A stretch of DNA of 34,811 nucleotides from Rhodospirillales bacterium (GTDB taxonomy: Bacteria; Pseudomonadota; Alphaproteobacteria; JAJFIK01), in contig JAJFIK010000095.1 in the NCBI GenBank assembly GCA_021775005.1, forward strand, positions 1 to 34,811, given 5' to 3'. Below are positions 9,437 through 12,688 of this stretch, one piece after another. The position numbers were made by a program, and so were the translations under genes. Below the pieces are notes generated by a model. The model was not told the origin of the DNA. It did no database searches and saw nothing but the letters and a program-made list of their open reading frames with translations. Each line of letters begins with the position of its first letter. Within the stretch, counting starts at the first letter, position 1.

Positions 9437-10204
9437 TTATTTCAGCTGTGGGCTTTGAGGGGCGGCAGTTGGCGCATGCGGTGCGGCGACCCCTTGCGGG
9501 GGTTGCGCGCCTTGAGCCCCCGCCTCCACCAGCTTGCCTTCGTGGAGCACCACGGCGCGATCCATGCGGGTGGCAAGGTCAAGGTTATGGGTGGCGACGA
9601 CGGCGGCAAGATTTTCGTGGCGCACCAGGCTGATGAGTTCATCAAACACCAGCTTGGCGGTTTTGGGGTCAAGATTGCCGGTGGGTTCATCCGCCAGCAA
9701 CAGTCGCGGCTTGTTTGCCAGCGCCCGTGCAATGGCTACACGCTGTTGCTCGCCACCGGAAAGCTCTGACGGCAAGTGCTTAAGGCGCGCGCCAAGGCCG
9801 AGCATGCTGAGAAGGCGGGTGGCTTCCTCAGACGCAGGTTTTTTGCCTACCCCGGCAATACGCTGGGGCAGTGCCACGTTCTCAAGGGCGGTAAACTCAG
9901 GCAGCAGATTGTGCGCCTGATAAACAAAGCCAAGCTCGGCGCGGCGGATTTTGGTGCGCTCCCGATCGCCAAGGTCAACGCAATCTTGTCCGCCGACTAC
10001 CACAAGGCCAGAGGCCGGACGCTCGAGCAGTCCCGCAATATGCAGCAGCGTAGATTTGCCCGCACCTGAGGGTCCGATGAGCGCAACAACTTCGCCGGGG
10101 CGCACAGTGAGCGACGCGCCGCGCAAGATGTGCAGCGCCACATCGCCTTGGGTGAAGGAATGGGAAAGCTCGCGTAGTTCCAAAATGGGGGCGACATTAT
10201 TCAT
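9437..10204 (-). CDS. lolD: Lipoprotein-releasing system ATP-binding protein LolD
   Basis: ATPase of the LolCDE (or LolFD) complex that extracts outer-membrane lipoproteins from the inner membrane and hands them to LolA. The 255-residue protein has Walker A GPSGAGKST (44-52), Q-loop Gln96, signature LSGGEQQR (148-155), Walker B LLLADEP (168-174) and switch His206. The segment VYQAHNLLPEFTALENV after the Q-loop is the LolD/MacB-type form. The C-terminal 30 residues are a Pro/Ala/Gln-rich tail unlike the compact end of E. coli LolD. The ATG at 10204 overlaps the permease stop by 8 bases and its GGAGG lies within the permease gene, indicating translational coupling. Confidence 0.95.
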   Translation of the reverse strand: MNNVAPILELRELSHSFTQGDVALHILRGASLTVRPGEVVALIGPSGAGKSTLLHIAGLLERPASGLVVVGGQDCVDLGDRERTKIRRAELGFVYQAHNLLPEFTALENVALPQRIAGVGKKPASEEATRLLSMLGLGARLKHLPSELSGGEQQRVAIARALANKPRLLLADEPTGNLDPKTAKLVFDELISLVRHENLAAVVATHNLDLATRMDRAVVLHEGKLVEAGAQGAQPPQGVAAPHAPTAAPQSPQLK

Positions 10205-11498
10205 AACGCAGCGCCTCCACTGGATCGAGGCGCGCCGCGCGCCAGGCGGGATAAAGCGGTGCCAGCAAGGAAAGCGTCAGCGCAACAATGACAACAGCCG
10301 CGACCTCGCCATTGTTCACCTCTGCCACCAGTTGCGAGAGGAAATAAATCTCAGGGTCAAAAATGGTTGCCCCGGTGACCCACATAACGAACTGGCGGAC
10401 ATATTCGATGTTCTCCGCCACCAAAATACCAAGCGCCACGCCGAGCACGGTGCCCATCACGCCGATGCGCGCGCCGGCGATTAAAAAGATGCGCATGACC
10501 ATGCCTTGGGTCGCGCCCATGGTGCGCAGAACGGCAATGCCGCGGCCTTTGTCTTTGGCCAGCATGATGAGGCCGGAAACCACATTCAAGGCGGCGACGA
10601 GAATGATCATGGTGAGGATAATGAACATCACCACGCGCTCGAGCTGCAGTGCGCCGACAAAGGCTGAGCGCAACTGCATCCAGTCCTCAACCCGTGCATC
10701 CACCCCGATCGCAACGGCGACGTCCTCGCGATAGCGCTGCACCTGATCGGGATTATCAACGCGCACTTCAATTTTGTTGATCCCATCTCTGGTACCAAAG
10801 AACAATTGCGCTTCAGCCAGCGGCATATAGACCAGGCTCGCGTCGTATTCGCTCATGCCAACTTCAAACACCATCGCGATGCGATAACTCTTAGTGCGCG
10901 GGGTCATGCCGAACGGGGTCACATCCCCTTGCGGGGAGATGAGTGTGAGCCGATCACCTGCGAGCAGGCCATGGGCACGAGCAAGGCGCGAGCCCACCGC
11001 AATGGCATGGCCGCCTTCAAACGCCGCCATGGAACCTTGTTGGATATTGTCAGCCACAAAGGAAAGTTGCGCGAGATCTTCGCGCCGCATGCCGCGCACC
11101 AGCGCGCCGCCCGTTGCGACATTTGACGATGCGAGCACTTGACCCTCCACCACCGGAGCTGCGCTAACGACGCCGGGCACAGCAGTGATGCGATCAATCC
11201 ACTCATCATATTCGTTGAGATTGCCAAACCTGGCTTCCACATAGATATGCCCATCAACACCGAGCAAGCGATTGAGAAGCTCCGCGCGAAACCCGTTCAT
11301 CACTCCCATCACAATAATCAGAACAGCGACGCCGAGCATGATGCCGAGCAGCGAGATGACGGAAATGGCGGAGACATAACTGTCGCGCCGCCGTGAGCCG
11401 AGGTAGCGCGCTGCCATCATCCACTCAAAGCCGGAAAACGCCCCCGCCCCTTTGTTTGAGCGTTGCGGCGTTGGAACAGCTGGATCTGCTGCAGTCAT
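10197..11498 (-). CDS. lolC: Lipoprotein-releasing ABC transporter permease (LolC/LolE family)
   Basis: Inner-membrane permease partner of LolD. The 433 residues show the family's start FEWMMAARYLGSRRRDSYVS, a first transmembrane helix at about 45-68, and a large periplasmic domain of about 220 residues. Three more helices follow: near 290-315 (VVMFIILTMIILVAALNV), 333-360 and 395-418. The protein ends with the FtsX-type LLAPLYPAWRAARLDPVEALRYE. Only one permease gene is present here; many alphaproteobacteria have a single hybrid permease (sometimes called LolF) forming a homodimer, so the LolC symbol is by convention. GGGAG precedes the ATG at 11498. No promoter was recognised in the upstream gap. 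Confidence 0.94.
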   Translation of the reverse strand: MTAADPAVPTPQRSNKGAGAFSGFEWMMAARYLGSRRRDSYVSAISVISLLGIMLGVAVLIIVMGVMNGFRAELLNRLLGVDGHIYVEARFGNLNEYDEWIDRITAVPGVVSAAPVVEGQVLASSNVATGGALVRGMRREDLAQLSFVADNIQQGSMAAFEGGHAIAVGSRLARAHGLLAGDRLTLISPQGDVTPFGMTPRTKSYRIAMVFEVGMSEYDASLVYMPLAEAQLFFGTRDGINKIEVRVDNPDQVQRYREDVAVAIGVDARVEDWMQLRSAFVGALQLERVVMFIILTMIILVAALNVVSGLIMLAKDKGRGIAVLRTMGATQGMVMRIFLIAGARIGVMGTVLGVALGILVAENIEYVRQFVMWVTGATIFDPEIYFLSQLVAEVNNGEVAAVVIVALTLSLLAPLYPAWRAARLDPVEALRYE

Positions 11499-11800
11499 AT
11501 TTGGTTGGCTCCCGAAAATCCTTTGAATTCAAGGTTTAGGTGATGCGCCGGGGCCTGACAACGGCGCAGTAATCACCAATGCGCGTCCTAGAGAGCGAAG
11601 GTGGCAAAAGCGGGACAGAGGGCATTCTCAGGCAAGCCAAACGCCATCGGCGGCGGAGCTCTTCTGGCCCGCGCCGCCGACAACCAACTAGCGATTTTAG
11701 ATATGAGAGGCGTCCCTCATGAAACGAAGGATAGCGGGCGCGCCAAAACATCCCGTTTAGGGAATAGATCGAATTGTTATTAACCCTGAAAGACCCCTCC
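11499..11800. other. Non-coding gap between lolC and the sRNA terminator
   Basis: About 300 bases without a convincing gene. Frames open here are Arg/Leu/Ser-rich and match nothing I recognise. Two structures are visible. One is an imperfect 18-base palindrome at 11703-11720 with ends ATGAG and CTCAT, operator-like. The other is an inverted repeat at 11649-11678 with GGCGGC and GCCGCC arms around an 18-base centre. Either could belong to the lolC control region. In many alphaproteobacteria proS lies in this position; no proS remnant was seen. Confidence 0.5.
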
Positions 11801-11830
11801 AAAAAAAGGCCGCCCGGGTAAGGGGCGGCC
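11801..11830 (-). terminator. Strong intrinsic terminator of the small RNA
   Basis: On the minus strand, GGCCGCCC (11823-11830) and GGGCGGCC (11808-11815) form a perfect 8-bp GC stem around a 7-base loop, followed directly by seven T residues (11801-11807). This is the clearest Rho-independent terminator in the window. It would end the sRNA and any read-through from DUF1467. Confidence 0.9.
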
Positions 11831-11884
11831 AAGTTCAGGGAGGAAACGCCATCAAGCGCACCCAGGGCCGATAGGACCCCGGTT
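11801..11884 (-). ncRNA. Candidate small regulatory RNA with an anti-Shine-Dalgarno motif
   Basis: A complete free-standing unit: promoter (11891-11919), about 84-base transcript beginning near A11884, intrinsic terminator. The 5' part can fold into a hairpin with arms ACCGGGG and CCCTGGGT, one bulged base on each side of possible pairings, and a loop containing TCCTATCGG. A likely single-stranded linker follows, containing TTTCCTCCC at about transcript positions 39-47, complementary to ribosome-binding sites. The terminator hairpin comes next. The architecture recalls alphaproteobacterial sRNAs carrying CCUCC motifs, such as the alpha-r14/suhB (NfeR1-like) class and related anti-SD RNAs; the family assignment is tentative, made from memory of its features. 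It sits 90 bases downstream of the DUF1467 stop on the same strand. Confidence 0.7.
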
Positions 11885-11890
11885 GATTCC

Positions 11891-11919
11891 AATATGAATA
11901 TGTTTATGGCGTTATGCAA
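11891..11919 (-). promoter_or_regulatory. Promoter of the small RNA
   Basis: Minus-strand TTGCAT (11914-11919), 17-base AT-rich spacer, CATATT (11891-11896). The predicted start at A11883-11884 gives an 84-base RNA ending at the terminator's T run. The -35 lies 55 bases after the DUF1467 stop, so the RNA does not depend on read-through. Confidence 0.65.
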
Positions 11920-11974
11920 GCCAAAAACGGAGATAAATTCCAATTACGACCTGTAATCCGTAATATCATGATGA

Positions 11975-12262
11975 TTATTCGTCACCTTCGGTGGCGGTCG
12001 GGGTCCCGATCTGCCACGGCGACCGATCAATAGAGATCAGATCAAAGGTTACGATGGTCCATGAAACGAGCCATATGATGACGGCGACCACGCTGGCAAT
12101 GAGCGCCTTTTTGCCCAAATGGTGCTCCACCGGCGCGCCGGGATCATTGCCTTCGATGACATCACCGTCCTCCCACTGACTGCGAATGCCCCACGGCAGA
12201 ACGATGAAAAACACCATCCACCAGGCACACATCAGGACCACAACGGAGCCGCCAATTCCCAT
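11975..12262 (-). CDS. DUF1467 family inner-membrane protein
   Basis: 95 residues with two hydrophobic segments (about 5-27, containing the family's WWMVFFIVLPWGIRSQ, and about 49-75). A polar loop between them reads GDVIEGNDPGAPVEHHLG, and a short acidic tail follows. This pattern, including the Pro-Trp-Gly at the end of helix 1 and the NDPGAP loop, is that of the DUF1467 family, an alphaproteobacterial membrane protein of unknown function. Its ATG overlaps the mce stop by one base (TGATG), so it is translated with mce; the family is commonly found beside mce. Function unknown. Confidence 0.88.
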   Translation of the reverse strand: MGIGGSVVVLMCAWWMVFFIVLPWGIRSQWEDGDVIEGNDPGAPVEHHLGKKALIASVVAVIIWLVSWTIVTFDLISIDRSPWQIGTPTATEGDE

Positions 12263-12678
12263 CAGCTGGTGACTTCCTCAAGTTCAATGAGGGCGCCGTG
12301 GCAATCCTTCGGGTGAAGAAAGATCACCGGATTGCCATGCGCGCCGATTTTAGGTTCGCCATCACCGGTAATGGTCACCCCCTGCCCGCGCAAGCGATCG
12401 CGCAAGGGGATCAGCTCATCCACTTCAAAGCCAATGTGATGGATACCGCCCTTGGGGTTCTTGGCCAAAAATCCCGCGATGGGTGAGTTTTCGCCTAAAG
12501 GCTCCAGCAATTCAATTTTGGTGTTGGGCAAATTCACGAACACAACAGTGACGCCGTGATCAGGTTCGGGCTGCGGTTCAGACACCTCAACATCATAGCG
12601 CTCTTGCCAAACTTTAGCGGCGGCCCGCACATCTGGTACCGCGATGGCGACCTGATTCAGAATTCCAAGTTTGCTCAT
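12262..12678 (-). CDS. mce: Methylmalonyl-CoA epimerase
   Basis: Interconverts (S)- and (R)-methylmalonyl-CoA between propionyl-CoA carboxylase and methylmalonyl-CoA mutase. The 138-residue VOC-fold protein has VVFVNLPNTKIELLEPLGE, NPKGGIHHIGFEVDEL, EPKIGAHGNPVIFLHPKD and GALIELEEV, closely matching alphaproteobacterial epimerases. Expected metal ligands are present at Glu56, His81 (or His80) and Glu132. The first ligand, normally His in LNHVAIAVPD, is Gln here (Gln9, codon CAG). The frame also has an ATG at 12684, but the ATG at 12678 has AAGGA seven bases upstream, so I chose it. It follows rnj by 10 bases. Confident about identity; activity with Gln9 is an open point. Confidence 0.93.
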   Translation of the reverse strand: MSKLGILNQVAIAVPDVRAAAKVWQERYDVEVSEPQPEPDHGVTVVFVNLPNTKIELLEPLGENSPIAGFLAKNPKGGIHHIGFEVDELIPLRDRLRGQGVTITGDGEPKIGAHGNPVIFLHPKDCHGALIELEEVTS

Positions 12679-12688
12679 GGTCATGTCC

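Follow-up and report, generated by a model that had tools for sequence, protein, structure and literature searches.

Results

A minus-strand unit without credible coding capacity lies between DUF1467 and lolC

The unit described here occupies positions 11801-11919 on the minus strand of the window, by which we mean the whole stretch of 34,811 nucleotides that was analysed. Upstream of it lies the gene for a DUF1467 protein (11975..12262, minus strand; PF07330, 4e-24), which is part of the kept neighbourhood and is preceded by the gene for an mce-like protein with a glyoxalase fold (12262..12684, minus strand; PF13669, 2.1e-20). Judged from its family and context, the latter is likely a methylmalonyl-CoA epimerase. 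Downstream lies the gene for a lolC-like permease (10197..11498, minus strand; PF12704 and PF02687). An earlier reading of this DNA, made from its letters alone (the sequence-only reading), had placed an sRNA gene between DUF1467 and lolC, and the matches to PF07330 and to LolC-type FtsX/MacB proteins bear out this location. It had also seen no credible coding capacity in the unit. An ORF that runs through it (11536-11943, minus strand; TTG-started, 135 aa) has no match in a Pfam search and no counterpart in the ORF list of the same-genus genome G001, and a protein-coding reading was rejected on these grounds.

The unit starts with a putative sigma-70-type promoter in which a -35 element TTGCAT (11914..11919, minus strand; CTTGCAT when counted from 11920) is separated by 17 bases from a -10 element CATATT (11891..11896, minus strand). 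A generic sigma-70 scan made no call at TTGCAT-17-CATATT, which is too weak for the scan; comparison with homologues supports this predicted promoter (see below). Transcription would start near 11884 and yield an RNA of ~84 nt. In the predicted fold, a 5' stem-loop of 8 bp (SL1; 11862..11882, minus strand), CCGGGGUC-CUAUC-GGCCCUGG, with the DNA arms CCGGGGTC/GGCCCTGG (11882-11862), is followed by a short stem-loop GCGCU-UGAU-GGCGU (SL2; 11846..11859, minus strand), a variant form of the αr8 hairpin discussed below. Directly 3' of SL2 is an exact copy of the αr8 anti-Shine-Dalgarno 10-mer UUUCCUCCCU (DNA: TTTCCTCCCT; 11837..11846, minus strand), referred to here as the seed, which is unpaired except for its first U, which closes SL2; the linker UUCCUCCCUGAACUU is single-stranded. 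A terminator scan detected an intrinsic terminator (11801..11830, minus strand) with a perfect, all-GC stem of 8 bp and a 7-nt loop (11830-11808) followed by seven T (11807-11801). The predicted RNA of three stems (SL1, SL2 and terminator) has a folding energy of -38.8 kcal/mol (z -2.8), and equal stability was reached by two of 200 shuffles. The promoter, the length, the 5' hairpin, the unpaired linker and the terminator are all where the sequence-only reading had put them on the minus strand; its account of the structure holds for the 5' hairpin and the terminator, while the second short hairpin (11859-11846) had been missed.

The unit is a divergent member of the RF00519 family

A cmscan of the whole window against Rfam returned a match to RF00519, the αr8 family (suhB, since renamed mmgR), at 11866-11793 on the minus strand (42.1 bits, E 1.5e-5). 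This is barely above the gathering score of 41 bits. Matches to other Rfam families, among them Betaproteobacteria toxic sRNA, SorX, isrD and sX13, were all far under their cut-offs. SorX (RF02784) shares a CCUCCCU linker followed by a terminator; however, the unit's score of 22.9 bits lies well under the SorX gathering score of 46.6, and the hairpins are unlike. The seed and the RF00519 match agree with the proposal of a CCUCC-type sRNA gene in the sequence-only reading, which had left the choice between a divergent member of a family and a new family; because of the RF00519 match, the former stands and the latter falls. RF00519 is also the family against which that reading had advised a check.

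Similarly to suhB/MmgR of Sinorhizobium meliloti, the unit has a short hairpin, then UUUCCUCCCU in single-stranded form and then an intrinsic (rho-independent) terminator that ends the RNA, and the sizes are similar (~84 nt versus 77 nt for MmgR). By contrast, the weak hairpin 5' of the 10-mer, although present, does not have the canonical GCCC/GGGC sequence and register: SL2 follows the pattern nCGCy-UnnU-GGCGw of the DUF1467-linked variant, while suhB/MmgR has GCCC-UUCUU-GGGC, and because of this variant sequence, the first seed U becomes part of the stem, unlike in suhB/MmgR. The locus also differs. While suhB/MmgR is beside the genes for N-formylglutamate amidohydrolase (FGase) and cpdR, the window copy follows DUF1467 and lacks the FGase linkage, which is common in most species and not strictly defining for RF00519. 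The TTTGTGC-type spacer found in many FGase-linked promoters is likewise absent from the window copy. The αR8 siblings SisA-D of Caulobacter crescentus have the family and the seed in common with the window copy; SisA, however, is linked to FGase, and four copies are present in Caulobacter, while one was found in the window genome.

The one copy found in the genome of origin and its ortholog in a same-genus genome

The RF00519 match in the window is the only one found in the genome of origin, and the 10-mer TTTCCTCCCT occurs only once when both strands of the 2.85-Mb assembly, which is 97.8% complete, are counted together. The usual αr8 locus beside FGase was not found in this genome. Its only FGase gene lies on another contig, and its score matches that of a distant paralogue in G001 rather than that of the αr8-linked FGase of G001; therefore, the canonical FGase-linked locus appears to have been lost or to lie in an assembly gap.

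The same-genus genome G001 has two good αr8 copies, one adjacent to FGase/cpdR (66.8 bits) and one between DUF1467 and lolC (47.1 bits). The latter is the ortholog of the window copy, with 23 identical bases through hairpin and seed; a GST-like gene sits between DUF1467 and the sRNA in G001. A second same-genus genome, G002, has kept the FGase gene, and no αr8 core was found in the surrounding 12 kb (C52, L163), which suggests that the RNA has been gained or lost among members of the genus; the contig of G002 stops right past DUF1467, where a DUF1467-linked copy would follow. Among the sampled genomes of the class, 171 of 289 have RF00519 matches, often several each. Tandem or multiple copies are present in many genomes; examples are G229, G149 and G034, where three copies are clustered, and G052, which has seven.

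Homologues share the gene order around DUF1467

When 385 genomes were screened with the shared pattern of hairpin and seed, with a tolerance of 3 mismatches, 18 of them had matches. By cmscan, 11 of the matches are αr8-like (31 to 55 bits), and five of these 11 are under the gathering score. The 11 loci, of which two are from near relatives, come from the window genome and ten more genomes and represent eight families. Because SL2 and the seed were part of the search pattern, the similarity in these two elements is in part a product of the selection; synteny, promoter and SL1 were outside the pattern and were not selected for. DUF1467 is within 1.4 kb of the sRNA in 10/11 loci, and in the eleventh (G165), the sRNA is inside the same block with DUF1467 ~5.5 kb away. 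Where the regions reach far enough, the gene order is rnj-mce-DUF1467-sRNA-lolC-lolD, with proS between the sRNA and lolC (proS was recognised by its sequence in two loci), and lolC is 3' of the sRNA in seven of the nine larger fetched loci as well as in G001. In the window (11498-11801) and in G001, proS is absent from this interval, unlike in other families. The sRNA of G001 is instead flanked by the GST-like gene and a 157-aa ORF.

Among 80 named mce loci searched for the same RNA past DUF1467, no clear match was found. The weak matches in L017, L046 and L035 resemble terminators with no relation to the sRNA and were rejected. In Alsobacter metallidurans, a stretch 3' of mce (L056, 6054-6139) has a degenerate αr8-like CTTCCTCCCAAGACTTGGACC and a stem, scores only 14.7 bits and is in the same syntenic place; it is possibly a decaying αr8 copy. 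Because the 80 mce loci gave only this weak, remnant-like match, the DUF1467-linked lineage is patchy.

The promoter signature is conserved at a fixed spacing

The signature CTTG-N20-(C/T)A(T/C) is upstream of all 11 homologues at exactly the spacing in the window and not at other spacings, although the motif was derived from the same 11 sequences in which it was counted; in shuffled sequences, 0.16 of 11 were expected to carry it, with a maximum of 2/11. The -10 versions among the homologues are CATnnT, CATATG, CATTTA, CACCCT or TATTTT. The signature is also present in 17/30 other αr8 loci, which are mostly FGase-linked. Because it is self-derived, because two of the 11 sequences are near relatives, and because these other loci share it, we regard the signature as a promoter of the family type and not as a mark of the lineage.

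In six of the 11 loci (L171, L178, L179, L180, L182 and L184), a dyad (A-tract)-GGCAAG-N-CTTGCC, whose right arm is the -35 sequence CTTGCC, is located ~70-110 bases 5' of the seed; it is absent from the window and G001. Read on the opposite strand, the dyad resembles an intrinsic terminator and could be one; it could also be an operator.

SL1, SL2 and the terminator as predicted across homologues

Conserved sequence, whose absence would have spoken against the sequence-only reading by that reading's own standard, was found between the -10 element and the terminator among the homologues, and UUCCUCC is nearly invariant in both alignments (A1 and A2). Because the whole-transcript MAFFT alignment A2 misaligned SL1 and the terminator, SL1 was judged by folding each sequence separately and no second covariance model was made. 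The SL1 segment, which is only partly covered by the Rfam model, varies in sequence, and the stem forms in nearly all 11 homologues (z -1.0 to -7.1) as well as in 16 other, mostly canonical αr8 loci (mean z -4.1). In SL2, 98% of the alignment cells are paired in the 11 homologues, and its closing pair is GU, AU or UA, i.e. it is compensated; the UA cases are two sequences with AUUCCUCCCU, in which the first U of the seed is replaced. From this pattern, it follows that the first seed U is probably paired and that the working seed of the DUF1467-linked lineage is UUCCUCCCU, while canonical members have the stem GCCC/GGGC with the 3' arm farther from the seed. The terminator stem has compensatory changes across the family.

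Discussion

Based on the data reported here, we consider it very probable that 11801-11919 is an αr8 sRNA gene in its own right (RF00519; suhB/MmgR/SisA), that its RNA of ~84 nt acts in trans and probably depends on Hfq, and that it belongs to a second lineage located after mce-DUF1467. Sequence analysis shows its family membership, predicted structure, promoter signature and synteny, while its transcription, use of Hfq, pairing by the seed and direction of regulation are inferred.

An alternative is that the RNA derives mainly from a 3'-UTR, i.e. that the mce-DUF1467 mRNA ends at the terminator and the sRNA is cut out of it, with the promoter being minor or unused. DUF1467 is on the same strand, its stop codon is ~55 nt from the -35 element with no terminator found between them, and the sRNA is close to DUF1467 in 10/11 genomes, as expected for such processing. 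However, the promoter signature is present at a fixed spacing in all 11 loci, and it is kept in G001, where the GST-like gene intervenes, and in G165 with its distant DUF1467, and we regard processing from the mRNA as unlikely. That the locus would be nothing but the terminator of the mce-DUF1467 operon, with CCUCCC upstream of it by chance, would account for the strong terminator; this is exceedingly improbable, given the RF00519 match, the 23 bases identical with G001 through hairpin and seed, and the conservation of the 5' stem and the promoter.

The sequence-only reading had also proposed kinship with αr14/NfeR1. Like the window unit, NfeR1/αr14 employs a CCUCC anti-Shine-Dalgarno strategy, and such motifs are present in both families; moreover, the Rfam output prints only the best of overlapping clan families, so that an ar14 match behind that of RF00519 would not be listed. 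Yet the best Rfam family at the locus is RF00519. NfeR1/αr14 RNAs have three hairpins with CCUCCUCCC in each, a length of 123 nt and function independently of Hfq (PMC10746234), while the unit has one UUUCCUCCCU, no CCUCCUCCC and ~84 nt. The kinship is not upheld because this defining motif is absent; we rejected an αr14-type sRNA on motif and length and consider it very unlikely here.

For the αr8 sRNA, we suggest the following model. Transcription would start near 11884 from the sRNA's own sigma-70-type promoter, and the RNA would fold into SL1, SL2 and the terminator, leaving UUCCUCCCU unpaired between SL2 and the terminator. UUCCUCCCU would then pair with GGGAGGAA-like Shine-Dalgarno regions of mRNAs and, by analogy with studied family members, Hfq-assisted occlusion of GGGAGG Shine-Dalgarno sites would block translation initiation. 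On the model of SisA and MmgR, functions in uptake or storage would probably be lowered. SisA is an Hfq-dependent repressor, for which pairing of the 10-mer upstream of the start codon was proved by compensatory mutations (PMC12559287), and deletion of the core of Sinorhizobium MmgR is reported to raise PHB and phasins (PMC8401924). The window genome contains hfq and two PhaC-type synthases, so that each of the two parts of the model has something to act on in this organism. In a pattern search, GGGAGGAA is 2-9 bases before an ATG at eight sites in the genome versus three for a reversed-pattern control. Five of the eight sites precede believable genes (for a GST, TrkA, a tryptophan halogenase, a DUF1761 protein and a FixP/CcoP cytochrome), and the genes at the other three are not convincing; as five is not clearly above the control of three, these genes are candidates only.

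Most species keep one αr8 copy beside FGase (PMC12559287), and the discovery paper described the motif without specific neighbours (PMC1273637); a description of a conserved second location was not found in the literature searched. We tentatively suggest that αr8 RNAs may comprise at least two anciently separate lineages, FGase-linked and DUF1467-linked, the latter with a hairpin register and a chromosomal niche of its own and with about half of its members under the Rfam cut-off. In some genomes, including the window genome, the DUF1467-linked copy would then be the only αr8 RNA and may have taken over the role of the family; its regulon might be connected with propionyl/methylmalonyl-CoA metabolism or with the cell envelope.

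The window sRNA is an ordinary addition to a known sRNA family, with good support, and an intergenic region that would otherwise be blank can now be clearly annotated. For the family, the second conserved location indicates that αr8 RNAs are not tied to FGase alone, and the Rfam model could be extended to include the variant hairpin as well as the 5' stem with its variable sequence. For analysing the role of the αr8 seed, a one-copy lineage with a shifted hairpin is also simpler to work with than Caulobacter and its four siblings.
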